64,000 nt of DNA from Branchiostoma floridae (Eukaryota > Chordata > Leptocardii > Amphioxiformes > Branchiostomatidae): positions 5,519,245 through 5,583,244 of the forward strand of contig NC_049989.1 in assembly GCF_000003815.2 (NCBI RefSeq). The letters are read 5' to 3'. A model generated the notes under the pieces. That model was not told the DNA's origin. It saw nothing but the letters and a program-made list of their open reading frames with translations, and did no database searches. This document shows, in pieces, positions 1,650 to 24,210 of this stretch (within the stretch, counting starts at the first letter, position 1; each line of letters starts with the position of its first letter). A program made the position numbers and the translations under genes.

Positions 1650-1925
1650 TTACATAGCCACAGGCTGGTTGAATAGTCCTGCCTGTGCTGTTACAACCTG
1701 AGTTCTGTATCTGTATCTGTATCTATGATGATAGCCGGTATAACCACCCTTCGGCATAACACACCAGAACCGACAGATAACTACTGACCCTGCCTCCATG
1801 TCATCCCCCATGTACTGCAGCAGCTGTGGAGCCTGTTCTATCACCACATTCAGCAGCTGGTCCAGATAAGCCTTCTGCTCCGAACTCTCGCGGACATTCT
1901 CCTTCAGGGCGGCCAGGATGGTGTC
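1650..1925 (-). CDS. Scaffold last exon: Rab11-FIP RBD-like helix and C-terminus
   Basis: Encodes residues 1342-1432 if read to the TAA. The segment KAYLDQLLNVVIEQAPQLLQ matches the Rab11-FIP Rab-binding pattern Y-[IL]-D-x-L-L-x-x-[VI]-[IM]-E-x-x-P-x-[IL]-L, follows a coiled coil and lies near the C-terminus, as in FIP1-5. After the helix the reading continues through a Tyr-Arg repeat (RYRYRYR) made by a TATCTG microsatellite, so the tail may be intron read-through. A GTCAGT donor at 1788 could instead splice to a short exon at 1305-1275 ending EEFC. A minus-strand AATAAA lies at 1525-1530. Confidence 0.68.
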   Translation of the reverse strand, partial: DTILAALKENVRESSEQKAYLDQLLNVVIEQAPQLLQYMGDDMEAGSVVICRFWCVMPKGGYTGYHHRYRYRYRTQVVTAQAGLFNQPVAM

Positions 1926-4900
1926 CTGGACAACAAATTTAGGAGATGTACTGACAGGTTAACTTCTAAAGTGTGTTAGACAAGAAAGAATAAAATGACA
2001 AGAGTGTAATATTGTAAAAAGATGAGAACAAAATATTTTTCCTGTAAAATATGTCATTTCAACTAAAAGTGGTTCTTCTATGTTTTGTAAATTTGTGACT
2101 TTATCAACAGGTGCTTCTTTCCCCGTTTTTCTCAATATGCCTAATTCCCTGCTTGTATAGGTCATGCTGCTGACCTTTTTAAACTTTCTATTTCAAAGTT
2201 TGTGTTAACAGATGTACACTCACTGTACCTTGTTAGAATCTTTTAGAGTCTCCCAAATTGGTGGCTCATCCCCTTTTCTTCTGTGGCCTGTAAAAGAAGT
2301 AAAACTGTCATTAGAAAAAAAACAACCTTGTCTGATGTTTCAAGACTGAAATCACATGCCAACTGATTACTAACAGAATAAGCCCCTATCTATAATTCTT
2401 TTTTCAACTGATTGAAACTCAACATCTTCTGTGAGACCAATACGTTTATGAAGGTTAGACATCAAGTAAGATACTCCAAAAAGCAGTAACTCAAGCAACT
2501 GGATATGATTTTTGAAACAGTTAGATGTGTCACTGATGAAAGATATCTGAAACATCTGCCAGTGACCATTTCCAAAAAAATCATTTGCTTTTGCTTGAGT
2601 AACTGCATTTTGGCATATATGAACCTTTCTTTGTTTTTCTCCTAAGACCTGGCCTTCTTTCCTCTTCATCTTCCTCCTCCAGCATCTGTATCTCCTCTAG
2701 AGCATCATCTCTCTCCTTCTGCAGGGCCAACATTGTTGCTTCCTGTTGGGGGCCAAGGATACAATAAGATAAATGTTGTTCTTGATTCTTTTAAATTTAA
2801 TATCCAGAATACATAATGCATGTAGGTAGGTTGATTGCTGTGTGTAGAGAAAAGGTTTAGGACTGTCCATCTTTTTATCTGTGTTAAAATTAGAGCATAA
2901 CTGGTAACTTGGTAGAAATGCCTACACATACAGTTGTACCTAAACAACTTCACAGCTCTAAATTCTACATCCAAAAAAGAACAATGAATGTATTATCATT
3001 TCAAAACTACAAGATCCAATAATATCACCCCAGAACCAAAGTTTTGAATATTTTCACTTCATTTTTACATCGAAGAGTGAAATTTATCATCAGAATTGTA
3101 GATGTACACAGAATCTGCTACAGAAACAGACAGAAGACTGACCCTTGCCCTGAGCTCCCCCTCCAGCTTAGTGACATGGTTCTCCTGCTGGGCCAGCTCT
3201 CTCTTCAGCCTCTTCACTTCCTGTAACTGTCAGAACAACAAAGTTTACAATCACAGGGGAAAGCTGCTCAACAAAAGGCAATAAACAACAATAAGTTTTA
3301 ACAAACACATGGGAAAGCTACAACTATAAGAGCATCAAAGTTTACAATCACAAGGCAATAAACAACAATAAATGTATTTCTACAATACCCCAGTCTAGAA
3401 TAATGAGTGTTTCAATTTAAAAACTGAAATCTACAAGATAATGCTGCCCATTTCTTGTACCAAATTTTAGTTTCTTAAACAAATAACACTATAAGCCATA
3501 TATCTACATTGTAGTGGAATATATGTTACTTTCTATACATATATATATATATATAACAACAAACTGCAAGTTGTCAAAAGTACAGGGTATCAAAATGCCA
3601 TCACATCTACCTACAAAATTTCCCTATGACAAGAGTAAGGCATACAAACAAAAGCCCACCTGATCATGCATGTGGTCCAGTCCATTAGTGACAGGGGTGG
3701 GGGCAGGTGTGGGGAGGGGGATCTCCTTGTGCTGTAACTCCTCGATCTTGTCACGTAGGTCCTTCCACGTCCTCTCAGACACCTCCAGCTACAAATGTTG
3801 GTGAAGATAAAATATCATCAAACATTGTGTGAAGAAACATATCTATTGGAGGAACCCAGCCTCTTAGAAATATCTTTTGTTACAAGCTTGCATCATATAG
3901 ATAGGAAAACAAATAATTATGAAATATACACACCGTACAAAGACACAATACTGTAATTCCTGATTTTTTCGCTGTACTTTTATGTTCACGGTTTTCACTA
4001 TGACGACTATAACGTGAACTTATCATTACAGATAACAAATAATTCACAGCCTTTTTTTAAGCGCATATGCTGCCATCGTGAACATTTAGTTCAGAGTTTA
4101 ATTTTCTTAGACCGTGAAAGTTTGGTACCGAGAAGACAAAGTGAATTACAGTACATATACATAATGAAATAAGAGAATTTTTTGAATTATGGAAGAGTTG
4201 TAGTCTACAGTTTGAGATCTAAAAGTACAATATCTATATACAGTATATATTGCTGCAAAACCTACATATCAATTTGTTACTGGAGACATTTTTTAAAAGC
4301 TGTTATTGAAACACTTAGCAAAACACGATTGACTTATTAGTTATGAAACACATGTGTGCTTGATTCTTAACAAACTTGTTGTCCTGATTACAACCAAAAG
4401 TTGTTGGATAATACACTTTCAAGATGCTATTTACCCTCTACTCTACTCTGTTGATGAAATTTCAACTACAAAGAAAGCAAATGCATAATGTTAACCTTCA
4501 CATGGTCTAGCCTAACAAACTTCTGCTCTGTTCAGTCTTACATAAACACCTTATATCTATGGTTACTAGTCTCTTCAGCTCTGTCAAGCCAGTTGTGACA
4601 TTATATAATTGAACACCACAAGGTGTCTGCTGCTTTACCAGTAACCATTGTGTTGGCTGTCTGGTCGAGGTCATTGACCTCATTTGTTTGAAGAAGAAGA
4701 AGAAGAAACAGAGCAGAAACAATATGTTTCCTGTCCGTGAAGGTAAACATAGTTGCCTTCACTTCAGTCTGTGAATGACGTACCTTTTTTCTCAGAGTTT
4801 CAGCTGTTTCCTCTGAGGTCTGCTTTTCCAACAAAACCTCTTGCTCTCTGTCCTTCAACCTGTAACAGCCAGTACAGATGTTATACTCAGGATGAAGAGG

Positions 4901-7900
4901 TCTAATAGTTAAACAAATCAGCTTTATATGATTAGCGGAGATGTTGCCAATAATTAACAATAATCCGCAAAACAATTGACCACTTATTCTGCAAATGAGA
5001 AAAGGCAATACTTACAGATTTTATTTGCATGGCAAAAGAGAAACAAGACAATCTGATAATAATATTAGTCTGTATCATTCAAGCTGTCAGGGATGATTTG
5101 GTCTTCTCCACCGACCAGCGGAAGAGCTGCTTAGAAGCTTGACTTAGCCAGACAAGAGATAATATTGACAAAATCTTACACCCCTGCAACTGTGGTTGAA
5201 ACTTTGTAGTGAGACCTACCTTTCTACTTCCTGTCTCATCCTGGAGTTCTCCTCCTGTTGCTCCTGTAATTCTGCCATCACCATGGTGATATCATCCTTC
5301 AGGCGAGACAGCTCCCCCTCAACCTGAACCAATAAGAAAAAAAAATTCATCAGACCTTTCTTCTTGAATGTGTTTGTGTACGTTGCACAAAAGTATGAGT
5401 CAAATAGCATGAGTGGTTCTGTGGTTCATATCCTGCTGCTGCCCTAAAAGACTATATTTGAATTGTGGCTATGGCTACCTGATTAATGAATACATCATTA
5501 GCTTGACAGTTCTTTGTTAATTACTGCCTATTTCTGCAGTAACTGTTGTATGGAGCTAGCCTTGGTGCTGAACTCTTGGTTCATCTAGTTTACAGTCGTC
5601 AGGACGGGATGTTAAGCCATGATACACTGTTCATTGTCCTCAAAACTGCTAATACAACTGTTACTGTAACTCATAAAAGTTAGTAAGCATGCAAATTAGT
5701 TTAAACAGTGTTAGCCAATGATTCCAGTTGGCCATCAATGGCACATCTCAAGGTTTCCTGTCCCTTACCCTGTCCAGCTCCTCCTGTTTGTTGTCCTGTG
5801 GTACTTTCCTGAGTACGACGACCTCCGCAGGTTGTTTGGTACCCAGCAGAGACCCCAGCATGGACTGATCCACGCTCCTGATGTCTTCACCATTGATCTC
5901 AAGCAACCTGCACAAACACAACACATACACAAAGGCTTCAAAATGACACCTCAGAGATGACGGTATTATACCGGTTTCGACTTTATTCATCTTTCTCAAG
6001 AATCAATGGCCGACAGGCTGAATAAAGGTTCAGAAACTTGAACTATGTGGCTCCAGATGTCTCACTGAGGGATGACTGGGTGCGATAGATGTTGGTTAGC
6101 TGAGGGATGAGTCAACTCTACTATATACTACATACGCAAATGCTTCTTCCATTGAAATGGCATGGCCCATCATTCACTATCATTCAAGCATATAACAATG
6201 ATTTTATTGGAAATTTAGGCCTGTCGAGCTAATTGCAAGCGAACAAAATCAAATACTAAGTTATAAATGAACTAAGTAATCTAAATTCTAACATACTAAA
6301 ACTAAGTGATTGAATGTACACTCATCCAAACATACAATCACTAGGCCTAGATCACTAAAAGAAGCTAAGGTATTGGACAGAACTACTGAGAAAGAAATAA
6401 AGGAGGCAATCAAAATTTGTTCACACTAAATTTGTATTTGGTTACCATGCTAACCAAGAGGAAGAACTTGACGAAGTATATGTAAGAAAGTCAACTAACC
6501 TGTCTCCTTCCATTAACCCACAATCTTTCCCTACGGACAGGACTTTCAGCATCTTGTTCTTGTCTGGAGAAGCTGTGAAGCCATAACCACCTGGACCAGG
6601 GGTCAGGGTCAGGGTCAGGATGGCCGTGGTTATGTCAGGGGAGACCAGAGGATACAGGGACACTTTTTCTTCTGACTTTTGCTGAAGATGAGAAAAAGTC
6701 ACATGGAAACAAAAAAGGTAAGAGATATGTAGTATATAGAGTGACTGCAGCAGTAGAGAGAGACTGCAGCAATAGAGATGTTTTGCTAAAAGAGTTATCC
6801 TTTAAATAATTGTAAATATATTGTAATGAAACCACAGTAAAGTGTACCTGGAAGCCAGTGTAGACAAGTACACATACAAGCTTTGAAAAACTCTTTATTT
6901 CCTCTGTGCATCAAAAGTAACAAATTTCTAGATGAAGAGAATACAATTCCCATAGCCCTGTCCATCTCCGTGGGTGGGGCTACAACATACAGGGCTGGTC
7001 TATCCCTCCAAGAACCTACATTTTTCTGTAATTCCAGTTTTGCCTCCTCCACCTCCTCCAGTAGGTCTGCCTGTCTCTGCTGCAAACTCAGCAGAGTCGT
7101 CTCCTCCATGGCAAGTTTGTACTCCAGCTCTGCATGCTGGATACTCGCATCTATGGTGCTGTGGGAACAACAACATAACTGTGAAAATCATTCCTTGTTC
7201 TTAAACATATGTCTACAGGTACCTGAGTAATATGTTATTAGCCTATTCCACAGATGGTAAAACAGATTAACAGACACTGACACTGTCAAGATATACCATT
7301 TACAACTACCTTGTTCCTACGTACTGTAACATCTACTTAGAATTATATAAAAAAAGCCAGTGATTTCTTATCATTTCTGCAGTAACTGTTGTATGGAGCT
7401 ATCCTTGGTGCTGAACTCTTGGTTAAGCTGGTTTACAGTGTTTGTGTCCCTGTCTGTGTGCCATTCTCTGCCGGGGCCTTGCTTTTCCTTGCCTTTTCTT
7501 TGCATATAAATGTAGATATAACTGTCACTGCTAGGCTTTGCCAATGTTGTAACTGCTGGATGAAGCCATCCTTGGAGCTGAACATTTTGAACATGTGCCT
7601 CTGGTATGTACCTTGTCTTCTTAATTTCAAACAAACAAAACATTAAAATTACCTGTTACTGCTAGGCTCAAGCCTGGCCCATACCTGCTGTAGCTGTTAA
7701 ACAGACCTGTCCTTGGTGCTGATTTCTTGAAAAAGTGTTTCCACCATGTCTATGAACCACACAGTCTACACCTTGCCTTAGTTTTGAACAATGAAATATA
7801 GATCTTTCCTGATACTGCTAGGTTCCTGTTGTGGTTGTTGGGTTATGCTGTCCTTGGTGCTGATCTTGACTAGCCTAGTCATTCTATCAGTAAACCACAC

Positions 7901-10900
7901 AGTCTGTGCCTTGCTTAAGTTTTGAACAATGAAATATAGATCTTACCTTTTACCGCTATTTTCGTGTTGTGGTTGTTGGGTTGTAGACTCATTGATCTTA
8001 ACTAGTCTAAGCCTCCATCTCTGAACAACACACATTCTGTGCCTTGCTTTACTTTCAAACAGTGGGATATCAATCTTACGTGTTACTGCTAGGCTCCAGC
8101 CTGGCCTGTTCCTGCTGTAGTTGCTGGATGGCACTCTCCTTGGTGCTGATCTCCTGGCTGATCTGGTCCAGCTGAGCCTGTAGTGACTCCAGCACTTCAG
8201 CATAGTTACCTGGGCAGACAGGGAGATGACCTACCATTTCAGTTTATCCTAAGATCATCCTGGCACATTTGCATATGTTTACAATGTTTGGTTGATTTTT
8301 CATTTCCCTTGCATCAATACCAGTTGACAATATAAACTACTATTTTTTTTTCATTCTCCTGTCAATTCGACTGATGAGCAGGCAGACAGGCATTTACTGG
8401 TGGGTTCAGCAACCTGTTTGCCTGACCAGCACACGACTTTTTATGTTGAAGGTCTACTATATGTTAATGATAATATTAAATGTACTAACAATTCATAACT
8501 GGAACATCACAATTGAGAACTATGATTTGTCTTCAAAGTATGGCCTATGAATGATACATGTACCTGGAATTCAGTTTTCAGTTCAGTTTATTAGCTCATT
8601 AAAATTTACCATCAAAGTCACAATAGAGGGGGAGACAAACCAGGTGACTGCTCATTTCTACATGTTATCTCCCCAAGAATGTAAAGTTTAATGTAGATAA
8701 GACAAAGTAAGTTACAATAGTAGATACACAATGTTCTTCCAGTATACCTTGTATCTTTGCCTCTGTAGTGCTGTGTCTTCTGTGTCTGTCTGCTTCTAAC
8801 TTCTGCACTAAGTTGGCCTCCTGTTGTCTGTAGCCATCCTGTAGTTCTGACAGGGTCTTTTGTAGACTGGCACACTGCAATGACACAACACTGGGCATTT
8901 AAAGACCTCAACTATGTCCAGCAAAGTAAAGAAGCAAATGCCAATGACTTGAGCATGTTTAAGAGTAGTATCTGATACCCAATCAACAACTAGTTGGGCA
9001 GGCTTGGCTGTACGTATTCCAGATCAACAACACAGTACCAAAAACAAGCTTGACAACCTCTGACCTGTCTGTCTCTCTCCTGAAGTTGTTCACTGGTATT
9101 TTGTAAGGTGGTGATGGTGACTTCCTTCTTCTCAAGCTGCTCCTTAAGTTCAGCTACCTGTCTTTGAAGGTCAGCTAGGGTCACAGCCTGCTTATCGACC
9201 TCTGACCCCGGGGGCGTGGTCAGAGCCTGCTCTATACTGGCCATCTGTGGGTGAATCAACAAGTGGTGTAACCATGAGATTTTTTTCTACTATGCTTTGA
9301 GCAAGGTCAACCAATATTTTCCACATATGACATGGGACAAATTCTGCAGTATTTCAAGTTAGAGGGGCAAAACTACCACTAAAGATGGTCTACCTATACT
9401 ATTATAGTATAATACCAGGGTGCCAGGCTAGCCTCTTTTTGGGGCAACGACCCTGGAAAATACTTCTCCAGCTAATTGAACTTTAGTAGTGTGTATGTCA
9501 TTTAAATTTTTGTCAAAACTAGAAAACTTGTCTAAAAGCCTACCTCTGCCTCCACCTTGTTGAGTTTCTCCATGTCCACTGCCTTGGAGTCCGACCCTGA
9601 GGATGTGATGCTTCCCTGGATCACACACACAGACACAGGGAAAGTCAACATCAGCTTAACAATCCAGTCTTACTCACTCAACCAAAAATGAAACAATCGA
9701 ATGATTTTCCCCTGGGATTTGAGGTACATGTATGTTACATACAGTATGAGAAGTGACAGAGAGCATTTTTGTGTTCATCGGTATTTTGATTAAGCTGATA
9801 TATATCAGGGATTGCTGGGGGTTACTGCTATACACATGTCCTTTATGGTTTGAATTCTAATAGAATAATATATCTGACTCACTGCTGATGTGTTGGAATA
9901 CGTTGATGTCTGAGAGAGTAGAGAAGAGTTCCTTCTGATGACACTGAAAATATAAGGAAATTTCACACACTCATGAGTCTGAGATGAGTTATTTTATATC
10001 AATAAACATCCATCCAAATAACATCATATATCTACATAACAGTTATCACATAAAGATTAAAAACAGATGGTTGGAACTGACTGGTCATTATAGATCCTGA
10101 AGAAAGTGACAGTGGTAGTTATATCTCCAAGCAGATCCTATGGTAGCATAAGATAGTATCAAAAGCTGGCAGAGGAGTGAAGCCAGCCTAGGAGTGTGTT
10201 TGGCTACCAGAGATCTGCCATCACAGAAACAGGGTGGAGCATTTCTATTCAACAATGGTGTTGCTGCCCCTCCCCTGTGGCCATATTAACAGCTACATGG
10301 ATATCCGTGGTGCTAATAATTTTTATGACCAAAATATATCTTTATTGGGACAAGTTCATAGACACCCATACAAGCAGTAGAGGCCCACCTAGCTATGGGC
10401 CCATCCATCTGCTCCTCCCTGCTCTCCTTGTCACACACAACAAAACAGGTGCAGCTGATCTGTCCCAGACAGTCACTCTCCTCCAACTCACGGATCCCTG
10501 ATGCAGAAACAACATCAGAGGGGGAAGCAACCTACAAATCTGACTCCTTTTCAATAATAGAAGGTTTATGTGCAAGTTCATGTTCAAAAGCTAATGGCAA
10601 GTACATGAAAGATACACAGGAGACATAGACGTGACAATGGACAGTGATAACCATTATTATAACCAGAAATTACTCAAATCTCAATGTTTGCTATATTCAG
10701 ACAAAATGAGTTTGGCATCTTTTTCCATGATTTGTGGGTTTTGTGATTTTTAGAGGAAAGTGGCTTTCTGTTAATCTGTGAACATGGGAAAGTTAGAATT
10801 AATGTTACAAGAATCCATTTCTGATAGATTTATGGCGGATGAGTAAATGTTTTACAAATAAACTGATTTGAAGCTGATTATGATTTGTTACCTCCTTCTT

Positions 10901-13900
10901 TGTCTATTTCCATCATACAGAACAAGTCCAGGTCCACGTTCTTCAGCCCAAACTTCCGTAACGTGAGCCGCATCACATCCAGGTATGCGGAATTCTGGGA
11001 TACCTTGAAGCTCTTCCCACGAGACTTGTGGCCAGTAATTCTGCAGATAACCTGCCAAATAAGGAATAAGGATGCTGGGTTACAAGATGTGATGTACGTG
11101 ATAACTTAATAAAGGTAGTTTAGTAATTTTTTAGTAATTTTGAATTTGTTTAAAAATTAGCTTGATTTCGAAGTTTTTTGTATTTTCTGTTCTGTTCTTT
11201 TTATAGGATTATTGTTGTGACGAGTTTCTGTAATTAATGACTTTGAATTGTTATTGCTTAACTTATGTTGAGTTAAACACAGTCATGTATGTTTGATTAG
11301 TTACGTTTTATAATATATTATGTTTACGATTATTGTTATGTTTATGTTGATTGATTTGGGCTCCCTTGAAAATCAGTTTTTCAAAACTGTAGGGACTACC
11401 CTAAAAGATTAATGAATAAATGAAAGTAATCATATAATGTCACATATAGATGTAGGGAGGCACAACAACAGAACATAATGTGCATGTGAAAGCCCCAGGC
11501 AATCAAAATAGCTGGTGAATAATCAGTGGCAAAGTCAACTGTCAACAACAACTGGATACTATTTAACCAATGACCAGCCTGGTACCTAAGTTGCAATGTG
11601 TTATCAAGTTGAGGAGCTGTTGTTTGTACTTACAACATGACATCTATTGGATGTTTAGTCAATGTTGCATCAAAATTTTGTCTGTTGCAAACAATATCTT
11701 TTCTCACACAACAGTTTGAAAACAATAGAAGGGATATCAATTCCCTACATCTGCAAACGCAACCTTAAATGATACATTCTGCTTAAGAGTTGATGCAGGC
11801 TACGATGCCTTACCTTGATGGATTGTCCAGAGTCCCATCTCCGTAGCTCGAAGCGGTGACTGGTGAAGCTGGGCCAAGCCCTCTGCACTGCTATTGGCCA
11901 CTCTGTCCTGACTAGCCTGCGCTCACGACCTGCACACGGTAGTTCAAACCAACAGTTATCAAGAAAGCAAAAATTTGCATTATCTTATTTGTAATAGTGA
12001 ATGCTTGACCATGTCAATTGAGTTCCAAATTCTATTTGCATCCTTATGAGTAAATCACATTACCCATCGGAAAAGAAATTCTATCAGGAAAACAGACTTT
12101 GTGATTTGAATTTTGTTATCTTTCCCTTTAAGAAAGGAAGAGTGCATCTTAACAAAAAAAACAACTAATTTTTCCTGATCGCCTCATCTATTTCTTATTC
12201 ATTCATTCATCTTTTTATCTATTTAGTTTTACCACATTTTCACCATCTCAAGATGTCAACCCCGAGACTAGACTGTAAGGTTTGAACCACTCACACCAGG
12301 AAGGACCCCTACTCTTTTCGACAAGTGGTAGGTTCTTTAACGTGCTCGAGGTGTGGCTCTTTGATAAAAAGAGAAAGGTAGGTGTTGATTCTGTCACCTT
12401 CTGTCCCAGACTGCATGGCCACCTGCATGATACAGTAGAGTCTGGGGTCCTCTGCCAGGTCCAGGGACTCCATACACTGCTGTACCAGCTCAGCTGCTGT
12501 GGTGCCCTCCAGCACCTGGTACGTACTGCAGTAGAAGGTGCCTGGAAACAAAGGGCAGACAAACTCTGACTGGATAGTAGTTACAGGCTACTATTTTCTA
12601 TAGCATGTACATATTTCTATTGATCATGTCACATCAACTACTGTAAATGCAGAAACTTTCGCAGTGGTTTAATGTTCGCAGTGGCCACTTCACCACAAAC
12701 TTAAAACCACCATGAGCATTTTTCCATGACAGTAAGAGACTACAGTGCATGGTGTTACCGTGAACTTAAAACCACAGCGAAAAGTTCTTTTTCTCGCTAC
12801 CGCAAAATTAAATCCCCGCGAACTTAAATACATTTACAGTATTTTCTATAGCATGTACATGAAACATTTCTACTGATCATGTCACATCACATAATTGTTT
12901 GAGGATAGATTTTAGGACTTGTATCATATAATGTCTTACCAGGCTCCAAGACGTCGTTCCAGACCTGCACAGAGTTGCCGTCTGGTCTGCCATCTCTCTT
13001 GCTGAACAGGGACTTGGGAGACACTGCTTCCTTCAGTCTGGAGAGCCTAATATTACACAAATCATGAAAATTAACACCCAAACAGATAATGCGTCATATG
13101 AAAACATGCATGTAGTTATAGCTTCTTCCTGAACTCTTGACAAAATGAGACAGTCATGTGCATGACATTGTATATTAGATGCTCACACACTAGTAGAGCG
13201 ATAAATCTTAGGGACGTCCAGAAGTCAATCACAAAAATGGGGTTACAAAATGAAAAAAAGTGAACAACAGCAGGATCAAAAGCATAAAAAAGGAACTTTG
13301 TACAACTATACTCACATTGCCAGCATTCTGGTATGAAAAATACACCTGGAATTTTTTTACGATGTCCAACACCTGGCTTGTTCTTTAATTACCGATAGTC
13401 TAAAAATCCTTAACTCTTGCCTGAGGTTTGCTACCACACTATAGAACTCCGATTTTGTCATGAATAACCGTTGGTGTGACTTTCTTGATGCATTCCAGGA
13501 GAAAGCCAACCACCTGTTACCAACAAACTTGGAACGAACCACTCGCAGAACTTCATGGGGGGCATTTCAATAGAACTTACTCAAACTTTATGACAACTTC
13601 AAACTTCTAGAATGTAAGCAAGTAAAATCAAATAACTGCTTAATCAGGTAATTAATTCAGACAGATTGAATCATATTTCCCAAACTACTTACGAAGTAAC
13701 TGGTTTACTACTAGATAGTACATGTAGAAGGCCTGGTAGCTTGTAGAGGGACAATAATCAAACTGTGACCAATTCATGTTTCACACCCACACCGACACTT
13801 TACATCTGTAGCGAGCAACTGATCAAGTAGCAACTTCCTGTTTCTATATTTGGGTATGACATTATACAACTGTTGGACAAGAAATACATGCAAATGTACC

Positions 13901-16900
13901 CTCATGGAACAGAAGCAGGGTAGTTTCAATGAAACATTAATATTAACCTAGTACATTTTTTACACAGAAACATGACAGAAGATGATCTCCTATAATGGAC
14001 AGAAAAGGTGCTAAAGATAGCCAGGATGGAACATTTTTCAATTAATCTACATAAAAGGACATTTTCTACCAGGAAGAAAATTTTAGGAACAAAGGTTAGT
14101 TCTACTGACTTGCTCCCAATAATTGATATCGAATGATGATGTATGTGTCTGAGTACATGTTATAGTTTTTTACTTAGTCATTTCTTATTCACATACTTAG
14201 TCATTCTTGATTCAAGAGTGGTAAGATACATCAGTATACCCACCCTTTCTTCATCTTGTTGGGTGTACCAGGACTGTTATTACTAGCTCGTGTGGGGTGG
14301 GGGGGCAGCTCTATCCCATAGGCATTACTGGATGTTCTCCTCAGAGCCTGCATAGCAGCTGCTAGCTTGTCTCGATCATAGGTGTTGTCAAGGTGGTCTA
14401 AAATTGTTAATGCATCAATAATTGAAATTTTGCATGAAACATTTACTTTAGTAGAGCATTAGCTAAACAGCACATGCATTTATGTAATAATTTTCACATG
14501 AATTATGTGATATGAGAAGAATAAGAAATAGTTGAAGAAAAAAAGGTGCCAGTTTTCCAGGATAGTTATTTGAGGCAAAGTCTAGTCTAGGGTTGGCAGG
14601 TTTTTCTAGGGTAGGTAGGGAAACAGAAACACAACATTTTTTCCCCTAGGGCTACACGAACTTTATTTGTTGTTTCTCGGATTTCCCAACCCTATTTTTC
14701 CGATTTAAAAAAAACAAAACTTTTCAAATTGATGGCCACACCTTGCAATTGTGTTGACAAAATTTCACTGCCTCTCCTTTTTCAAATTAACTAAGGACCT
14801 CAAATTCCAGTAGCTGGACGGTACATTTTTCTTCAAACTTTGGACTTTGCTACCAGGGACCCCCTAAATGTTGAAAGCTTGGATTTTCCTGCCCGATCTC
14901 TCTCACCCCAGACTTTTTGAAAAGTTTTTTTTTTTTAATTTTTTTTCGAGAAACAACAAATAAAATTAGTGTGGCCTAGACCTAACAGTACAAAACTGGT
15001 GTGATACATCTGAACAGACTACCAATATGTGAAACAAACAGACTACATATGATGATCACCTATTGCACTTGGGTCGACATCAGCTGCCTCTGGGTGGAGC
15101 AGGTCGTACACGTGGGACAGGATCCGCTCACGGTCCTCAGGGTCATGGATTGTCATGGAGTCTGCAGGGGGAGGTACAAAAGGAAATAATACATTCAGAT
15201 AAAAAGGATGAGTGGAATACATACTAATAGATGTTGTTTTGATTTGTAGGCACTGAAAGTCAAGTTGTACACTGCAAAGCCAGTGACGCATTATTTAATA
15301 TTGTCCAATTATCATGGGGAGAAAATCACTTGGAGGTTTAAATCATGAAATGCAACCAATATAATTCTGACATTCTGAAATTTCAAATTTGTCTTGAAGG
15401 CTTTAGAGATAACAAGCACCTTTCAACTGGCATCAAATGATCAAGAGGCCAGGGTAAGTGGAAATGAGGTTGAATGGGGTTAAGGGTTTGATTCCTGGCA
15501 TTCTTGCTTGACATTGTGCCCTTTACAAAACTTTCGTCACTCCACCCAGCTGTAAAAAGGGGAGGTAAAAGGTGGTATAGAAGGAGAAGTTTGGACTCCT
15601 CTTTCCAATACCATACCCTTAAGACACAATGTACAGTCACTGTGGATAATAATCCACTGACCCTATGGTCTCAAGAAAACAATGGGACTAAGTATACCTT
15701 AACCTTTTATAGAATTAGATGTTGCCTTACCAAGTAGTTGTGGGTCCAGCTGAAGAAGCTGCTGTCCTGTGATGTGTTTGGCTGTAAACAAAACAACAAT
15801 TCATACATATGCATACTATCACCTGTCAATGTTCACAGTAATCCTTCAAGGATACAATTCTCTGTTGGAAATTAACCTTGATACCAATAGTAAATGTACA
15901 TTTAATGTGCCAACGCAGATCACTTATCATAATAAGTATGATGCATGTAAACATACACTGCTGATGACATTAAAAATATTTGGAGGGCAAAACAACGGTT
16001 TTACCTTGTGACTCCTGCATGTCCATACGTGTTGGTTCAAATATTTCTGACTACTTTTTGGTGAATTGTATGTAACTGCCCATTACCCAGTCTTTAGGTA
16101 ATAAAATTCTGAGATACATAAAATTATTGATGACTTTTAATCATTTATGAGCACTACAATAAAACCCATTCACTTTGGAGATGTTTAACCTAATCTGTTA
16201 GGACACTCATTTCTTAGCTTCAATGATCACAGTAGGCACAGAAAAAGTTAGGAAATTTTAACCCTCTGATTAAGTTTTCTACAGGAAACAATGGACACAC
16301 ATGTTGTTTACATCTTTCTTATGCAACTTGGTGACGATTTTACGAACTTCACGCTTGTTGACAGTACAATAATTGTTGCGGATGATAATAGTATTGGACA
16401 TCCAATAGACATGTGAAGGCGTCCACTGCAAGAAAAGGGTGTCAAGGAACAGTTCTTAACCTTAGTAGAGAAGTACAGTCAAACCTGGTCTACCGACCAC
16501 CTCTGCATAACAATCCACTGTCCACTACGACTGCTTTTCGGCGGTCCCTTGAATTTTCCCATAGATACAAGCATTAAGACCCATCTACAAATTTCTAACT
16601 GATAAGAGAACAGCTGCTACAGTCATGCTGGTGTTGCTGAAAGATTTATCACTACTGAATCATTTTGTATATTGATTTATTTCTTAGTTAAGTGTACTGT
16701 CTGTTTTATGGCCAATTCTTCCTGTATCATTTATCAAGATATGAAAATTTAACTACCTTTATTTCCCGAAATTGCTACTGGGATACATGAAATCGATCTG
16801 TTGTTTAACAGACCTCTTGCTCTGTTGCAACTGTTGGCAACTCATACCATAAAAAGGTGAACATTTATTAATATGTTACCCAGGAACTTGAAAATCAAAT

Positions 16901-19900
16901 AACATCAACCTTACAGTAAGGTTACGGTAGTGTTTTGGTGATGGGGCTAGGTAGGAGGCTAGGGAGATTAGATGTATAGCCATCTTTATTACCTTTTAAG
17001 CATTTATTACCTTATGGATAATTCATATATCTACCTTTGACAGTTAAGAATTATAGCCCTGTGCTTACCTTACCTTAGACCTCCTGCAACACTGTTGCAT
17101 TGGTCAACTCGGTGAGCGTACTTTCTCCATTCTAAGGGTGTGGTTTTGAGCAGCTATAATAAATGCCATGCTTTCCATGTTGTGCACCACTTGTTATTGT
17201 ACAGTCTGTCAACACGCTTATTGGCATTTAACAAGAAGCCCAATAGGATGTTTGTTTCTATTTTTTTTGGTAATCTTATCTGTAACCAAAGTTGGTTAAT
17301 ATACATTCTTTTGGCTTCATATATAGAGTAAATAAAAGGGACAGTTGCTCACCCCTGAAGACGTGAATGAACTTGTCCAGCCCAGTAGACTGCAGCCATC
17401 CACAGACGTCACCTTCGCCCCAGTCTGTAGGGTCCTTCTGTCTCCACATGGTGCTCACTTCAGCATCAACCTAGTCACAACAATTCACAGCAATGGAACA
17501 AACATCTAGGCTGTAACATGTACAGTTGGTCCACTCTATGTAGTCTGCAGCGTAAAAAGGGCTACAAATGATACATTTGGGGATTTCCTCCTTTCTTTTG
17601 AACATCTCCTTTGACTTCCATTTTTATCTTTCTGTAACACTTTCAAATTTCGTAAGTCAAATGCTATCAGTGATGATTTAGACATAGAGTGGAGGTGGAT
17701 TTAAGTCCACCCACCTACATGTACACTGTATCCTGTTCATCTTTCTTTGGGAAGTCCTTCTGTAAAAACTTGAAGTTGTCTTCAAAGGTCTTTGAAAAGT
17801 ATATACCTAAACTGCTTTCAAGAAACACCAACTGCTTAAAAGTGGACTGAAATATTCTTTGAACTCGAAAAATCCTAATGTGTTTCAAATCTTTGGACCT
17901 GTCCAAGTAAGAATGGCATTAAGAGTACGGATCTGAGCTCTTTTAGTATTAGCTTATTACATAAACGTACAGTAACTGATACTTAAATGCTATCAAATGC
18001 TTTCCCTCAATTTATAGATCAAAGGGTAAATCAAACATCACTAAGTATTAACGTCATTTTTCCGGCAGCAGTAACATTTAGATGGCTTATTGTATAAATG
18101 TACAGTAATTGAAAAAGAATACGGGTAATGTCATATTATTCCTGTTCTTATAGTTCAAAGGCTAGCCAAGCATCCATTAGTGTACAGGTGTCAATTTGTA
18201 TTCGATTACATAATGTAATAAAGAGACAGTACTTTCTGCTGTTAACTGTGACATTTAGGAAGGGGTTTGAGGCTTTATGTGAGTTTGTTACACACACAAA
18301 TGTACAGTAAGTCAATACAGCATTAAAGCTTTTGAAGGTGTGCTTTCTGGTAAACACCTTGAAGGGTAAGCCACATGTAATAAACCCTAGGATTTTTACC
18401 TGTGTCCTGGTTTCCTCTGATAGGAGTAACATGAGAATGGGGCTCTCTATCGTATCCATTGTAATGTTCAAGAAAATGGATGTTGAACCCTTCTGACTTT
18501 TACTGACTCGTGTCCTTAATCTCTCAGACCAACTCAGCTCAACGCCCTGGTCAACTCAGCTTAACACTCTTACTCTAACCCTAATTGCAACCCTAACCCT
18601 GGTCAAGATGACCAGGGTGCTGGGCTGAGTTCAAAAGGTTCAAATCATCCTGATCCCCAAGAAACTGATACTCCTTTGAATTTAGAGACTGTACAGTTAT
18701 ATTGTTCTTTCTTCCAAACATGTGTCACTAAAAGTGATTAGTGATAAACATCAATGATAGAATTCTCCAACGGTTGTTAGACAACTTACATCTTTGCCAT
18801 TTTGCTGTAACAGTTGTGGTTCCACAATGGCAGTGCTGGGTTCACGAGGGGGGTGGGACAAGCCTAGGGTGGACACGCAGCATGCAACATCATCATGCAT
18901 TACAGCACAACACAATACAACAAAACACATCAAACAAATAAAGACAAATAAACATCAAAATAAAAACATTGCAGGTGCAGTTAAACGTGAAACTAGGGTG
19001 ATGCTGATTTTTAGAAAGTATTTTACAGTCTAGCATTTAACTTTCATCTTATTTTCAGTCATAAGCCACTGATGATATAATGTCTAAGTGGTCACATGTA
19101 TATGCTGAGCAAACACTTTTTCAGTTGTCTATGAAGGCTGGCTGAGTGAGATATGACAAAAGATATTGAAAATTGATTTTTGTTGGGTATAACACAGAAA
19201 ATTTGCATCACCCCTGTTGAAGTTGAATTTTTACTAAAAAATAAAGTAAATCTGGAGAACAAAATTCTTGAACAAAAAGGAAAGTAAACGTCTGTGCAAG
19301 ACAACCATGCATTATAGCAGTCTACATGCAAAATGATTTTTATAAACTCCAAACACATATCAGTACAGGTAATTTCTGTGGTACCTGATTTCAATAGTGA
19401 CTGTGGCTGGCTGTCATTCAGCAGAACATCTGATCCTTCCACTTTGGAAGCAGAGATGTCAGTTTTGTTTTGAGACTCAGTTTTCTGCTGCTCCTGTGAG
19501 AAAGAAATAACAATCACAAAGCTGACAACAGATGTATGATTATAGCCAAATACAGACACATTGGCCTTATTACCCCTCCAAACAGCAGGGAACTCACAAA
19601 GTCATGCAACAATGAGATGATTTGTTATGTAGAGAGAGCATTTTATAAAGCAGGGCTACACGTACAGATGGGTTTGGTACACAAGCAGCGATTGGTCTTT
19701 GAAAGCAGGTGCTGTCAAGTACGCACAAAGTAACCTTCTCAATTTCAAATACTCAGATCCGGGACTTAAGTCAGATATGAAAATCACACCATTAGCCTTG
19801 GTAAGGTGGATCAGCACGCTAGATGGAAGTATTGCATAACACACTGGAATAAAGGACTACGGTTCAAAGACAACTAGACTGTACCATACATAACACTGGT

Positions 19901-22900
19901 GATACTTCGGAAATGGATTATTTTTCCAAACAATCGCGGTGTCCCTTACGAAAAAAACAAGGGACATCTGTCCGAGAGCTTTTACACCATTAAATTCAAC
20001 ACTGCACAATACTTGGAGTGTGAATGTAGTCTTCAAAGCACATGAAAGAATATTTTTAAAACGAAGAAGCTTTGGTTTCAGGGAACTTCTTTCATTTTAA
20101 TATAAACCTTTTTTCAGCTTACATTCGTTCAAGCAGACATTTGAGGTATTGCATATCTAAACTTTGACAAAATATTTGGTTTGCTCTCAGATTTTGAATT
20201 CTGCAAACCCCAAGTACAGCCTCCAAGCAGCTACTACAAAAGCTGCGCCATTTCGCCCCATTGAAAAGTAATCCACTTTCTCAGGGAGATTTGCGCAAAC
20301 ATAACGTGAAAGCTGGCACTCTAAGCCAGCAGGGCTCTGTTTACTCGTGGCCTTTACTTAGCCGTAAGCAGCAATAATACAGACCTGTGCAGTTCTGTAT
20401 CTGTTACACAGTACAAGATAGGGTTACCATCCGACCTTTTTGTTATGATCTTGGAACGCAGAAAGTGTTGAAATTTATATTCACATCCATTTCTTATACT
20501 AAATGGAAGAACAAGGATATATCAGGTACAGTTGTAGGATTAGTGTTGTAGCTGAGCAATATATAATATTTGATGTTAAACTTACAATTGAGTGTAGCAG
20601 GACTTTGGATTTATGAGTGACACTGACAATATGCTCCATACATTGACCCATTTCCTTTAAGAAATAAATTCACCTTGACATATCTAGAATATTAACTGAA
20701 ATGGTCAATATGGACCATTAAGGTCAAAGGACAACTAAGTGTTACCTGCGTCCTGTCTGGCCTGTTCCTCTCAGCTTCTAGAAGTCGTAGAAAATGTTGT
20801 CTCTGGCCACCATTTTCGATCTCAAGATCAACTGTAGGTGGAGAATATTGCAAGAGGTATTAAGCTGGCATACCCCGAACTTACAATATGATGAAAAAAG
20901 AATCTTAGGAGTTTCAAAGAATCCTTCAGAGTAATCAAAAATTAACAATATCAGATGAGTATACTCACTTTATTCATTATGCTGAAAGCTAAAAATGTGA
21001 CAATAGTGTCACATCATTTGAATGACTTCTACCTGCTCCTGTGCATGCAGCTTTGTTTACTGTTTCCTCCTGCTGTCAAAATTAGCTGGGTTAACTCCTA
21101 CAATGTGCTAAAAGTAACCTGGCACCAGGGGTTTCTAAGAGAATGTTTATTGGATAAACAGAGATTAACACTAATCCTCAGTAATTATCCTTCCAATTAT
21201 CATTTTTGCACAGGTCTCAGAACCAAGTCATGCATACTGTAAGTAACCCTACTGGGTGTGAGTGAAAAGCATGTTGTATAGTTGTAGTACTATTATGGCT
21301 GTATACCATCCGTGTTCATAGTTTGATACCTCCTGCCAACCCTTCTTCTTTCCCTCAGGATCATGAAATCCTCCTTGTTCAGTTATTGTGTTAAGGAAAA
21401 AACACTATTACTGTAACAAAGCCATTATGTTACACATGCTCACTTTGCATAACATTTAAGTAAATCAGAATCTTTTGAATGGAAAATAAAGGGATTAACC
21501 CTCTCTATGCCGACTCAAACCTCACAAGCAATACAAATGTTGTACCAAAAAGCTACCTCAGCAAGGATGAGGTTAAATCTGACTTACTGAGGTCCTGTTC
21601 TGTGATCTGTATCAGATATTCCCCCTCGATGCAGCCCTCAAAGATTTCCACGAAGCCCTGCTGGTCAGTAGCCTGCAGCCATTCTACTATGTCCTCGTTT
21701 GTCCAGTTTTGTACAGGATTCTGTTGCCAGCCGGGCAATATTACAGCTGCTTCTGACGAATCCTGTCAAAAAATCACATGTAAATATTATGTATCATAAT
21801 GTACTGACTTTAAGACCACACCTGCCAGATACATGTAGATAGGAAGATCATACACTGAAAACTCACCATGTCACTACCAATGTACCATACACTGTGAAGC
21901 TAGTGTCCTCAAGGATATGGGTACAAAGAAGAGACCTTGCATATCCTAGGTCACTGGCCAGGCTTTAATGAAATAATGATAGGCGACACCTGGTAGCACC
22001 CTACTATTAACCCAGAGTAGTGCTCATTCACCTGCACTAATGTGTACTTTTATCTGTCAGCAAAAACAATGGAGTTAACTACTGTGTAATTATGTGTCCT
22101 CTAGCTAAATGCTGCTTGGGTACTGACTATACAGTAAGTAACTACCAGCATGTTAGCATACATTATCAACTATTACTTAGTGCTTTCTTGGACTTTCTGA
22201 AGGTCTTGAAACAAGTAAATTCATCTCTGGCTCACTCTCTGTGTTTTCTCAATATTAATTTACACAATATTTTTGTACATCTTTTTAATTGATATTGCAC
22301 CTTTCTTCCTTTTTGCCTTCTCTGGTACTTTGTAGTGCACCTTTTTTTCACTTTTAGACCAAAGGTGCAGTACTAATGAGACATACAAAAACAAGACATG
22401 AAACACTGTGACTGAACTTCATGTAGATCCTACATCTGCTTGGAGATTAAGTGAAGTCGTAATTCATTGTGTCTGTTGTCAATGGTTTGAGAATGTCAGC
22501 AATGTTTTCTACATCCTTAATATCCGGACATACAAGCACAGCTCTGATGATTCCAAAACACACATAATCACCCAGAAAAACAGATCAATGGTTGGAGATA
22601 TCTGAGTATGTAACTGATCAATATCTGCAGAATGTACAGTCACAATGCAGGGCTCTAAATACTACATGCATATGCAGGTTAGTGCAGGTAAAACTGGAGC
22701 TGTGCAGGTATTTCTACCTGCACCTACAACTGCAACCTGCACTGGTCCATGTACTGGGTTTATACATAAATACCCTATGATGTAGGTGTATGTGAATTGT
22801 TATCAGCTGCATTGACTGTTAACGCCTATTATAATAAAAGAAAACAAAGCAATGGTTCCTCAACAATTTTAGTATGATCCATATACTTCTAAATTCAGAG

Positions 22901-24210
22901 TGGTGCAGGTAAAATTTGTCTGGTGTAGGTAATTTTCAATGTTACCTGCACCAATGCAGGTATGCAGAAAAAAGTATTTTGAGCCCTGCAATGGTATGGT
23001 CTAAAGGTTAGCAACCCTGCTTCTAGATTACAAGGTTCGGGTTCAAATATAGGCCTTTCCTTTATGTGTTTTGAACTGATTTGTACACTACAAGATATGC
23101 ATTACAATCCTTATTATGTTGACCATCAGTCCTATATTTAGAAGTATTTAGAAATATGCCAGAGTTTTGTGGCTACTAGCAAGTCCAAATGTCTAAGTTA
23201 GACAACCTTGGCCAAACCAACAAATTGAATGAAAAAAAAAATCTTTGAACTGCACACAAAATACTTACCTCAATTTCTATGTGAATTCTAGGGGTACTCG
23301 TGTCATGGTCTGCTCTTGCATTATCACTGCTGGAAGACGTTGAATCATCTCTTGCACCGCTAGTTTCCTTCTGAGAACTCGCAAGTCTCGGTATCATACT
23401 TCTGTTTGCTGTGGCTGGAGAAGTTGGTGAGGCTTGTCGTCCCGGGGAATCATTATCTGCCGCCTGCATTCCTGGCTCTGGTAATGAAATAGGCTGGAAC
23501 TTCTTCCTATGATAGGACGACCCACTGGCCGTGGTTAAAGGGCCCTGTGAGGGGCCTTTCGTGGCTTGTCCAGGTTTGATCAAACTCAGGTCCTTTCTGG
23601 GAGACAGAGTTGGAAGAGAGTAGGCAGTTAGGAGTGAGGATGGCTTTTGTCCTGTCATGGCTCGTTGTGACGGTAAAACAAACATGGAGTTTGGAGACTG
23701 CCTCTGTTTTGCGAGAACGCTTGGGGATACAGAGGGACTTAACCGTGGGCTGGCATCGCCCCCCTCCTCTGACTGGTATGGTCCATCAGCAGCATCAGTA
23801 TGGCTTGGAGGTAGGTCTGTTCCACTTTTCTCAGGGGAGGAGGGATTAGTGTCATCAGGAAGGGGTGAGGTTGGAACAGGAGGAGGGGGTACATCAGGAG
23901 GAGGAGGAAGATCATCTAAGTCAGAGTTGTAAACATCACTCCCTGGCACCGAGTCTTTTCTTTCTGTAGTTCTTGGGCTCCCTCGTCTTGGGGGAGGCAG
24001 CGGTGCCTTCTTCTTTTTGAGAATAGATTTTGGGCTTTGACTAGCAATGACTGGTATATTGCTAGGAGTTCTGCCTTGCTGAGAGTTCCCTCCAAACTTG
24101 CTTGGTGGTGGGGGCTTGCTGATGGGGGTGTTTGCCCCCCTGGGTGGGGGTGGGGCTGCATTCCGCTTGGGACTGGGAGCTCTTTTCTTAAACCCTGGCC
24201 ACTTGGACAT
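1650..24210 (-). CDS. Multidomain scaffold: SAM-SAM-RA-RA-coiled coil-PDZ-coiled coil-FIP-RBD-like (29 exons)
   Basis: Exons read on the minus strand: 24210-23269, 21762-21588, 20831-20746, 19493-19385, 18863-18790, 17470-17353, 15781-15731, 15161-15060, 14397-14244, 13046-12940, 12541-12398, 11929-11814, 11051-10892, 10497-10389, 9943-9883, 9615-9544, 9244-9065, 8874-8748, 8209-8080, 7158-7020, 6681-6500, 5907-5769, 5323-5220, 4859-4784, 3788-3660, 3226-3143, 2742-2649, 2287-2229, 1925-1650. All junctions are AG/GT and all phases agree, giving 4299 nt and 1432 residues. The start is the first Met after an in-frame TGA. SAM domains mediate oligomerisation, RA domains bind Ras/Rap-type GTPases, PDZ domains bind C-terminal peptides and the FIP motif binds Rab11. 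A cytosolic, membrane-recruited adaptor is inferred. I do not recognise a named family with this order. The last exon's 3' boundary is the least certain part. Confidence 0.85.
2229..5323 (-). CDS. Scaffold exons 23-28: second coiled coil
   Basis: Exons 5323-5220, 4859-4784, 3788-3660, 3226-3143, 2742-2649 and 2287-2229 encode residues 1160-1341. Heptads include VEGELSRLKDDITMVMAELQ, EEQENSRMRQEVE-like repeats, LKDREQEVLLEKQTSEETAE, VSERTWKDLRDKIEELQHKE, VKRLKRELAQQENHVTKLEG and LQKERDDALEEIQMLEEEDE. A Pro-rich break (IPLPTPAPTPV) interrupts it. The exon 27 donor is GTCTTA, a weak site fixed by phase. The coil leads into the C-terminal Rab-binding-like helix as in Rab11-FIPs. Confidence 0.75.
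3535..3556. repeat. (AT)n microsatellite
   Basis: About ten AT dinucleotides in the intron between scaffold exons 25 and 26. Confidence 0.9.
3821..4255 (+). repeat. Segmental duplicate carrying a MITE insertion
   Basis: Second copy of the segment at 81-300, inside the intron between scaffold exons 24 and 25. It is interrupted by the element at 3951-4151. Confidence 0.85.
3951..4151. mobile_element. MITE with CTGTAATTC ends and TA target duplication
   Basis: 201 bp, beginning CTGTAATTC and ending GAATTACAG, flanked by TA on both sides. The paralogous empty site at 81-300 reads through with a single TA. TA duplication and short inverted ends are those of Tc1/mariner-type non-autonomous elements. 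There is no coding capacity. Confidence 0.85.
5530..5605 (-). pseudogene. Displaced copy of the decayed exon 19 repeat
   Basis: The stretch TTTCTGCAGTAACTGTTGTA through CTTGGTGCTGAACTCTTGGTT matches the repeat unit at 7375-7440 almost base for base but lies in the intron between exons 22 and 23, about 1.8 kb away. Confidence 0.75.
5769..6681 (-). CDS. Scaffold exons 21-22: PDZ domain
   Basis: Exons 6681-6500 and 5907-5769 encode residues 1053-1159. The carboxylate-binding loop is GGYGF, preceded by TLTLTPGPG and followed by MLKVLSVGKDCGLMEGDRLL, EINGEDIRSVDQSMLGSLL and PAEVVVLRK, which supply strands B-F and the ligand-facing helix in the canonical order. The intron falls inside the conserved GDRLLEING segment. 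It should bind short C-terminal peptides, with the class not deducible by eye. Confidence 0.9.
7020..9943 (-). CDS. Scaffold exons 15-20: first coiled coil
   Basis: Exons 9943-9883, 9615-9544, 9244-9065, 8874-8748, 8209-8080 and 7158-7020 encode roughly residues 816-1052. After a short Ser-rich lead the sequence is heptad-rich with few helix breakers: LADLQRQVAELKEQLEKKEV, TLQNTSEQLQERDRQ, SLQKTLSELQDGYRQQ, EVLESLQAQLDQISQEISTK and LLSLQQRQADLLEEVEEAKL. Dimerisation is the expected role. Exon 19 (8209-8080) is the source of several degenerate copies in the next intron. Confidence 0.82.
7375..8020 (-). pseudogene. Tandem decayed copies of scaffold exon 19
   Basis: Five degenerate copies of the exon at 8080-8209 and its flanking intron lie head to tail in the adjacent intron. 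The shared core TCCTTGGTGCTGA (plus strand) or its variants is near 7402, 7571, 7709, 7851 and 7988, against 8138 in the true exon, a spacing of about 137-169 bp. Readable pieces include NQEFSTKDSSIQQLLQ and SSKDGFIQQLQ against QEISTKESAIQQLQQ in the exon. The copy near 7700 has an in-frame TAA. They also share intron sequence such as TGAAATATAGATCTT. Confidence 0.75.
10119..10195 (+). repeat. Solo arm of the 38-kb foldback element
   Basis: CTCCAAGCAGATCCTATGGT through AGATAGTATCAAAAGCTGGC matches the left arm of the palindromic element at 37983-38146 with few differences. It is intronic in the scaffold gene. Confidence 0.75.
10389..11051 (-). CDS. Scaffold exons 13-14: second RA domain
   Basis: Exons 11051-10892 and 10497-10389 encode residues 727-815. 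VICRITGHKSRGKSFKVSQN is a basic strand pair, AYLDVMRLTLRKFGL the central helix, and DLFCMMEIDKEGGIRELEES the ending typical of RA domains (family pattern yxLxEv...ereL.d.e). The basic patch around the first two strands is where Ras-family effectors contact the GTPase switch. A remnant of the same fold in tandem suggests an afadin-like double-RA module. Confidence 0.78.
11814..12541 (-). CDS. Scaffold exons 11-12: first Ras-association (RA) domain
   Basis: Exons 12541-12398 and 11929-11814 encode residues 640-726. Together with the end of exon 10 they give a ubiquitin-like RA fold: GTFYCSTYQVLEGTTAAELV (strand, then the helix that follows the Thr-Thr-Ala motif), DPRLYCIMQVAMQ, and then a run ending in ERRLVRTEWPIAVQRAWP and SHRFELRRWD. 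The PIAVQRAW...RFEL ending matches the afadin/RASIP-type RA consensus (PLxVQxxW...RFxL). The bound GTPase cannot be predicted. Confidence 0.82.
12641..12839. mobile_element. MITE with CTGTAAATG ends
   Basis: 199 bp, CTGTAAATG...CATTTACAG, flanked by TA on each side. The interior repeats CGAACTTAAAACCAC-like blocks. Same family as 52476-52645. It is intronic in the scaffold gene. Confidence 0.8.
12940..14397 (-). CDS. Scaffold exons 9-10: SAM-RA linker and start of RA1
   Basis: Exons 14397-14244 and 13046-12940 encode residues 553-639. The first is a Ser/Pro-rich linker (TRASNNSPGTPNKMKKG). The second adds a basic stretch (SPKSLFSKRDGRPDG) and then NSVQVWNDVLEPG, which is the first beta strand of an RA domain and aligns by eye with the opening strand of afadin and RADIL RA domains. 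The donor of exon 9 must be the second of two overlapping GT choices to keep phase 2. Confidence 0.75.
14646..14979. mobile_element. Foldback element, about 330 bp
   Basis: Ends are inverted copies: ACTTTATTTGTTGTTTCTCG on the left and CGAGAAACAACAAATAAAAT on the right. Complementarity continues inward through A-rich/T-rich blocks around AACTTTTCAAA and TTTGAAAAGTT. Confidence 0.7.
15060..17470 (-). CDS. Scaffold exons 6-8: second SAM domain
   Basis: Exons 17470-17353, 15781-15731 and 15161-15060 encode residues 463-552. DPTDWGEGDVCGWLQSTGL begins the domain, KFIHVFRAKHITGQQLLQLD is the mid-loop helix pair and DRERILSHVYDLLHPE the C-terminal helix. The first SAM is cut by one intron and this one by two at different positions, so they are not a simple recent tandem duplication. 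Confidence 0.82.
18531..18632. repeat. Small inverted repeat with telomere-like loop
   Basis: AACTCAGCTCAACGCCCTGG pairs with CCAGGGTGCTGGGCTGAGTT. Between them lie several CCCTAA-type units (CTAACCCTAATTGCAACCCT). Confidence 0.65.
18790..19493 (-). CDS. Scaffold exons 4-5: linker between the SAM domains
   Basis: Exons 19493-19385 and 18863-18790 encode residues 402-462, polar and low in complexity (EQQKTESQNKTDIS, then GLSHPPREPSTAIVEPQLLQ). No domain is visible. The exons are supported by frame continuity (phase 0 in, phase 1 between, phase 0 out) and clean acceptors, but the composition alone would not identify them as coding. Either could be alternatively spliced without breaking a domain, because together they are a multiple of three. 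Confidence 0.65.
20746..21762 (-). CDS. Scaffold exons 2-3: first SAM domain
   Basis: Exons 21762-21588 and 20831-20746 encode residues 315-401. The fold signature runs from NWTNEDIVEWLQATDQ through GFVEIFEGCIEGEYLIQITE to QHFLRLLEAERNRP, which gives the five-helix SAM pattern with W at the start, the hydrophobic EWL helix and the C-terminal long helix. The intron splits the domain after QDLS, a common place in SAM genes. A role in self-association or heterotypic SAM contacts is inferred from the family. Confidence 0.85.
22648..22988. mobile_element. hAT-like non-autonomous element
   Basis: 341 bp bounded by CAGGGCTCTAAATA and TATTTTGAGCCCTG, a CAGGG-type inverted end as in hAT elements. The interior is rich in GCAGGT and ACCTGC in both orientations. 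The flanks share only CAATG, so an 8-bp target duplication is not evident. It is intronic in the scaffold gene. Confidence 0.65.
22993..23058 (+). repeat. tRNA-like sequence, probably a SINE head
   Basis: GGTCTAAAGGTTAGCA resembles a polymerase III A box and GGTTCGGGTTCAAAT a B box, with about 30 bp between. The acceptor stem does not pair convincingly, so a tRNA pseudogene or SINE head is more likely than a functional tRNA. Confidence 0.45.
23269..24210 (-). CDS. Scaffold exon 1: proline-rich, disordered N-terminus
   Basis: This 942-nt exon encodes residues 1-314. It opens MSKWPGFKKRAPSPKRN and is dominated by proline clusters (AAPPPPRG, SKPPPPSK, APLPPPRR, DLPPPPDVPPPPVP), which are typical SH3 or EVH1 ligand sequence, and by Ser/Thr-rich basic segments that could be phosphorylated. 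No folded domain is visible. The donor follows IHIEIE at GTAAGT. The GC-rich composition produces several overlapping out-of-frame ORFs, which I treat as shadows. Confidence 0.8.

Follow-up and report, generated by a model that had tools for sequence, protein, structure and literature searches.

In the amphioxus Branchiostoma floridae, a gene of 29 exons and 28 introns encodes a scaffold protein in which two SAM domains, two RA domains, a coiled coil, a PDZ domain and a second coiled coil are followed by a probable Rab11-FIP-like C-terminus. The gene was rebuilt from the sequence on the minus strand (24210..1650) of the window, that is, the whole 64,000-nucleotide stretch analysed here (C11:5519245-5583244 in a genome of 513 Mb and 431 contigs). 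Its exon chain is open and consistent in phase, and its SAM, RA and PDZ regions show similarity to known domains. We read the scaffold as a GTPase-to-endosome adaptor and as a candidate new combination of known parts, which may couple Ras-type signalling with the recycling of membranes. In full, this reading holds that the locus is a single gene whose multidomain product connects a Ras/Rap-type GTPase with Rab11 endosomes; it is given slightly less than an even chance. The domain order proposed in the preliminary description is solid for SAM-SAM-RA-RA and good for coiled coil-PDZ-coiled coil, and the FIP end is probable, with a score below the Pfam cut-off. Literature searches among open-licence papers listed no protein with the combination SAM-SAM-RA-RA-PDZ-FIP.

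The coding sequence forms one open frame of 4299 nt, from the ATG at 24210 to the TAA at 1652-1650, and specifies 1432 residues plus the stop codon. All 28 introns have GT-AG borders; 13 of them are in phase 0, ten in phase 1 and five in phase 2. Rebuilding recovered the same gene that had been described before, in which 29 exons join into a protein of this length without a phase error. Since the exon borders were chosen with the frame as a guide and not blind, an automatic exon chainer was also applied. This crude program derived its codon preferences from the longest open frames at nine loci elsewhere in the genome and its background from 26-64 kb of the window, which is also the stretch behind four of the five controls. 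When no minimum exon length was set, 25 of the 29 rebuilt exons were returned exactly in a chain of 44 exons, small false exons included, with a score of 249; the opposite strand scored 69, and four runs on both strands of two overlapping 23.4-kb stretches scored 57-128. With a 40-nt minimum exon and the stricter intron penalty, the chain had 22 exons, 19 of the 29 being exact, and scored 97.6 (five controls, 3.5-28.5); with the other penalty it had 26 exons, 21 of the 29 being exact, and scored 165.5 (controls, 14.8-59.2). Under both penalties exons 1-5, 27, 28 and 29 were missed or altered, and under the stricter one exons 6 and 7 as well. The proline-rich exon 1 and several short exons were not recovered by the chainer. 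The joins are further supported by domains that span exon junctions, namely SAM1 (exons 2-3), SAM2 (exons 6-8), RA1 (exons 10-12), RA2 (exons 12-14) and PDZ (exons 21-22).

At the 3′ end, the chainer in its 40-nt minimum runs broke exon 29 off at 1765 and placed an extra exon at 1305-1275; the run without a minimum exon length also gave an alternative end. The final ~38 residues, which run through a TATCTG repeat, lie past this possible donor and are uncertain for that reason. A polyadenylation-like AATAAA hexamer is located at 1524..1529 (minus), 121 nt past the stop codon. Rfam and tRNA scans of the whole window gave no matches. Beyond the 3′ end of the gene, window positions 71-302 repeat the intron 24 stretch 3813-4260 in two pieces of 89-93% identity, and the copy in intron 24 carries about 200 nt extra.

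The N-terminal half of the scaffold contains the domains that exceed their Pfam cut-offs. Exon 1 (23269..24210, minus) supplies the start codon and a proline-rich N-terminus of 314 residues with PPPP and KKKKAPLPPPR runs, which is probably disordered; no Pfam family has its best stretch in aa 1-314, and exon 1 has no NCBIfam match. SAM domain 1, at about aa 331-390 (exons 2-3, 20746..21762, minus), matches Pfam SAM_2 as a fragment with 38.6 bits against a cut-off of 20.5, and its nearest relatives in phmmer are SHANK2, SHANK3 and CNK2. After an inter-SAM linker without a Pfam match (exons 4-5, 18790..19493, minus), SAM domain 2 at about aa 479-538 (exons 6-8, 15060..17470, minus) reaches 42.9 bits with SAM_2 as a fragment, and neurabin-1 is its nearest relative (phmmer, E 3.8e-5). 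Exon 9 (14244..14397, minus) forms the linker from SAM 2 to RA 1 and has no convincing Pfam match. RA domain 1 at aa 628-720 (exons 10-12, 11814..13046, minus) scores 45.9 bits as a fragment against the Pfam RA cut-off of 21, and among the RA domains in PDB it matches afadin alone (1wxa, phmmer E 5.3e-4). RA domain 2 (exons 12-14, 10389..11929, minus) is matched by Pfam RA at aa 728-793, where the fragment scores 23.7 bits against the same cut-off of 21 over columns 8-73 of 93, a partial match; a PDB sequence search gave it no relative. The first strands of the two RA domains differ in net charge, RA2 being basic (+6 in 25 residues) and RA1 acidic (-2 in 24). Exon 13 had no relative in the prokaryote and viral collections, where none was expected. 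When the full chain was scanned, SAM_2 reached 68 bits over two stretches and RA 59.3 bits over two, both above cut-off.

Two coiled coils enclose the PDZ domain; they were called from a rough composition scan and not with a coiled-coil predictor. The linker and coiled coil 1 occupy exons 15-20 (7020..9943, minus; about aa 841-1062), where the best Pfam matches are coiled-coil families, all below cut-off. An NCBIfam search with coiled coil 1 listed 20 families, all far below their cut-offs. The PDZ domain, at about aa 1062-1150 (exons 21-22, 5769..6681, minus), has GYGF as its carboxylate loop. Against PDB, phmmer matched it to 13 sequences of five PDZ proteins at E <= 0.001 (best 1e-7), which are NHERF1 (nine sequences), NHERF2, InaD-like protein, MAGI-1 and MAGI-2. 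In Pfam the PDZ fragment scored 23.9 with PDZ_6 (cut-off 27) and 21.7 with PDZ (cut-off 23.2), with 27 residues matched; in the full chain the scores were 20.0 and 16.5, both below cut-off. Coiled coil 2 (exons 23-28, 2229..5323, minus; about aa 1163-1341) has weak matches to coiled-coil families. In this part of the gene, exon 19, which is itself open and encodes coiled coil, is accompanied by several partial, decayed copies of itself and its flank in intron 19 (window 7374-7958, minus) and by one further decayed copy in intron 22 (window 5526-5589, minus). These copies have 68-80% identity over 37-111 bases, none is open as a whole exon, and their appearance is that of an exon duplicated in tandem long ago.

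The C-terminus is encoded by exon 29, in which a FIP-like, putative Rab11-binding helix with YLDQLLNVVIEQAPQLL (1815..1925, minus) is followed by the C-terminal tail and stop codon (1650..1814, minus), whose end is uncertain given the possible donor at 1765. In FIPs, two Rabs are bound by a parallel coiled coil at the C-terminus, and the N-terminal domains vary (PMC7397465). Rab11a binding is blocked when the YID/YMD motif of the Rab-binding domain (RBD) carries point mutations (PMC3279423). In the scaffold tail the motif is YLD, a variant in which the middle residue is Leu and not Ile or Met. The core YLDQLLNVVIEQAPQLL aligns without gaps with FIP2 YIDNLLVRVMEETPSIL and five other FIPs. A 17-position pattern that includes Y-x-D and P-x-x-L is common to the tail and the six FIPs; drawn post hoc from all seven sequences, it was matched by none of 200,000 shuffled tails and, across all six frames of the window, by the tail alone.

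Profile searches, which the preliminary description had named as a test, placed the RA regions above cut-off and left the FIP region borderline. A 70-residue fragment scored 21.2 bits with Pfam RBD-FIP (E 2.7e-4, columns 1-39 of 41) against a cut-off of 23.3; a 101-residue fragment scored 19.9 bits, and the full chain 7.3 bits (E 5.8). When the RBD-FIP profile was run against all 513 Mb of the genome, five places appeared at E <= 10, and the scaffold tail was fourth with 20.3 bits (E 0.354). Strong FIP ends on C13, C19 and C5 took the first three places; the fifth place had 16.3 bits. The nearest PDB chains were FIP2 for the C19 end and FIP3 for the C13 end, the two ends together matching FIP2, FIP1 and FIP3, whereas the FIP-like end of the scaffold matched no FIP chain in PDB. 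In the C5 end (C5:13481581-13481688), YAD replaces YID. Smaller profiles made from FIP sequences gave the following values. When the 61-residue tail alone was compared with 20,000 of its own shuffles, two scored equal or better with a six-FIP profile and three with a five-sequence profile. With segments scored alone on the six-FIP profile, the tail had 10.3 against up to 9.5 for other coiled-coil segments. On the full chain the six-FIP profile gave the tail 4.1 bits, the same as the coiled-coil stretch aa 1174-1190, and this value was equalled or exceeded by 13 of 3000 shuffled tails and by one of 300 shuffled coiled-coil sequences. The FIP-type reading of the C-terminus is somewhat likelier to hold than to fail, and the Rab11-related part of the scaffold is only marginally supported.

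Known proteins share parts of this architecture. The comparison rests on a full-chain Pfam scan, which listed 11 families at E <= 10 and whose filters drop most weak matches. As far as Pfam tells, the contrast with afadin, ARAP and CNK drawn in the preliminary description is upheld, in that the other marker domains of these proteins were not found. Afadin/Canoe has two RA domains and then one PDZ domain, an order common to afadin and the scaffold. A study that includes amphioxus afadin among the sequences compared gives fly and human afadin/Canoe as RA-RA-FHA-DIL-PDZ with a disordered tail (PMC10399776). Neither FHA nor DIL was found by Pfam in the full chain of the scaffold, and the two SAM domains, the coiled coils and the FIP-like end are extra in it. 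By the Pfam scan, the scaffold is not afadin. RA exons resembling the RA chain of afadin are present on C9, another chromosome of the same genome; only the RA exons were examined there, and their naming as afadin-like is partly our assumption. An afadin-type linker, DGRPD before RA1, which we take to be present in human afadin, was also considered. This idea was dropped because none of GRPD, DGRP and DG[RK]PE occurs in three RA loci, those of the C9 afadin-like exons, the C15 kinase and C13.

The Rab11-FIPs have a C-terminal coiled coil that ends in a YxD-type Rab11-binding helix; the scaffold has a candidate for such an end, with an RBD score below cut-off. The proline-rich N-terminus of FIP3 (PMC3279423) also resembles that of the scaffold. 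The C2 domain of class I FIPs and the EF-hand of class II were not found in the scaffold by Pfam, and SAM, RA and PDZ stand in their place. CNK (connector enhancer of KSR) joins SAM and PDZ in one scaffold, as here, and the CNK2 SAM matches SAM1. CNK is made up of SAM, CRIC, PDZ and PH domains; CRIC and PH were not found by Pfam in the scaffold, which has the RA pair. ARAP carries SAM and RA in one chain, as the scaffold does, together with ArfGAP, RhoGAP and PH domains, none of which Pfam found in the scaffold. By the Pfam scan, the scaffold is neither an ARAP nor a CNK, and its N-terminus sets it apart from the FIPs of class I and class II. The SAM domains of neurabin-1 and Shank are nearest by sequence to those of the scaffold. 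Neurabin combines PDZ, coiled coil and SAM, and in neurabin and Shank the order of domains is different and an RA pair is not known.

We propose the following mechanism for the product of a presumed single transcript. A parallel dimer would be built by the two coiled coils together with the helix at the C-terminus; its end would bind Rab11-GTP and bring the scaffold to recycling endosomes. A GTP-loaded protein of the Ras/Rap family would be bound by the RA pair, above all by RA2, whose first strands are basic. The SAM pair may oligomerise or recruit SAM partners, the PDZ domain may hold the C-terminal tails of membrane cargo, and the proline-rich N-terminus may recruit SH3 or actin-regulating proteins; each of these partners, Rab11 included, is a predicted one. 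The Rab11 link is favoured because the FIP-like end is C-terminal after a coiled coil, covers nearly the full profile, ranks fourth of five in the genome and has Y-x-D. The adaptor reading as a whole is weakened because RA1 is acidic in its first strands, the profile match of RA2 is partial, and RBD-FIP stays below cut-off in every form of the query. Alternatively, a single gene may encode an afadin- or CNK-like scaffold of the junction or cortex that does not bind Rab11, the likeness of its coiled-coil end to FIPs being due to chance or a decayed remnant. The sub-threshold RBD-FIP scores, the genome-wide E of 0.354, the PDB search without a FIP chain and the near-equal scores of other coiled-coil segments on the small FIP profile all agree with this explanation, but it has to account for the ungapped 17-position agreement with six FIPs, albeit in a post hoc pattern, and for the C-terminal position and genome-scan rank of the FIP-like end. 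We lean against it, while holding it a serious possibility.

It is also conceivable that the locus holds two genes or two main transcripts, so that a SAM-SAM-RA-RA protein and a coiled coil-PDZ-coiled coil-FIP protein are produced from neighbouring units. An ATG opens exon 17 exactly at the splice acceptor, and intron 14 has an AATAAA at window 10346 (minus), 43 nt downstream of exon 14. The locus could therefore yield a short or split product; for example, a short isoform could possibly end after RA2 by using this AATAAA. On the other hand, introns 14-17 are short (445, 267, 299 and 190 nt), in phase and bordered by GT-AG, and the frame after exon 14 runs on beyond the AATAAA of intron 14. 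The gene strand has 15 AATAAA hexamers in 600-24300, and as 14 of them are intronic, a single one in intron 14 is not telling. A split into two units is regarded as very unlikely.

The adaptor reading, like the others, is compatible with an old origin of the gene. The scaffold might belong to an old animal gene family that is present in other invertebrates too, perhaps listed as uncharacterised there, and that vertebrates lost or split up. With its many introns and intact domains the gene looks long-established, and databases often hold unnamed proteins of such kind. We consider such a family a good possibility and lean only a little against it. Should the gene be old and missing from vertebrates through loss, it would show a wiring that they replaced. 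Regarding function, separate proteins are usually credited with the control of junctions by Rap/Ras and with the recycling of junction cargo by Rab11. In the most far-reaching version of the adaptor reading, which we think unlikely, the scaffold would be a single-chain coincidence detector of active Ras/Rap and Rab11, in which an afadin-like RA pair, two SAM domains and a PDZ domain are joined to a FIP-type end, and it would form a third class of FIP beside those with C2 and EF-hand. A single chain with both inputs would open their coupling to tests in which domains are deleted, and would give the FIPs a third kind.

The same genome was searched for a paralogue. When 72 SAM places and 14 RA places were compared by eye, one close pair was noticed, on C7, with about 25 kb between its members, and no other was as close; the order of this pair would presumably suit ARAP. 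A place with two RA domains on C15 was rejected as a paralogue, as its open frame resembles a diacylglycerol kinase with C1-like repeats, RA-RA and the start of a kinase domain. At this locus (L014 2490-4670, minus), a single open stretch of 726 residues contains the C1-like repeats and the two RA domains, together with what resembles the start of a diacylglycerol kinase domain. The genome scans caught SAM1 of the scaffold and missed its SAM2, RA and PDZ exons; domains split by introns thus escape them, and a paralogue may have done so too.

Two open frames were observed elsewhere in the window. On the plus strand, 31208-31540 contains a 110-residue open frame with a CSCGYPCESISHFMLHCP stretch, which presumably resembles the end of a non-LTR retrotransposon protein. 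On the minus strand, 33510-33938 contains an open frame with MASLRVVLVLLLVVVMSSFSAPVPAKS, which resembles the signal peptides of small secreted proteins.
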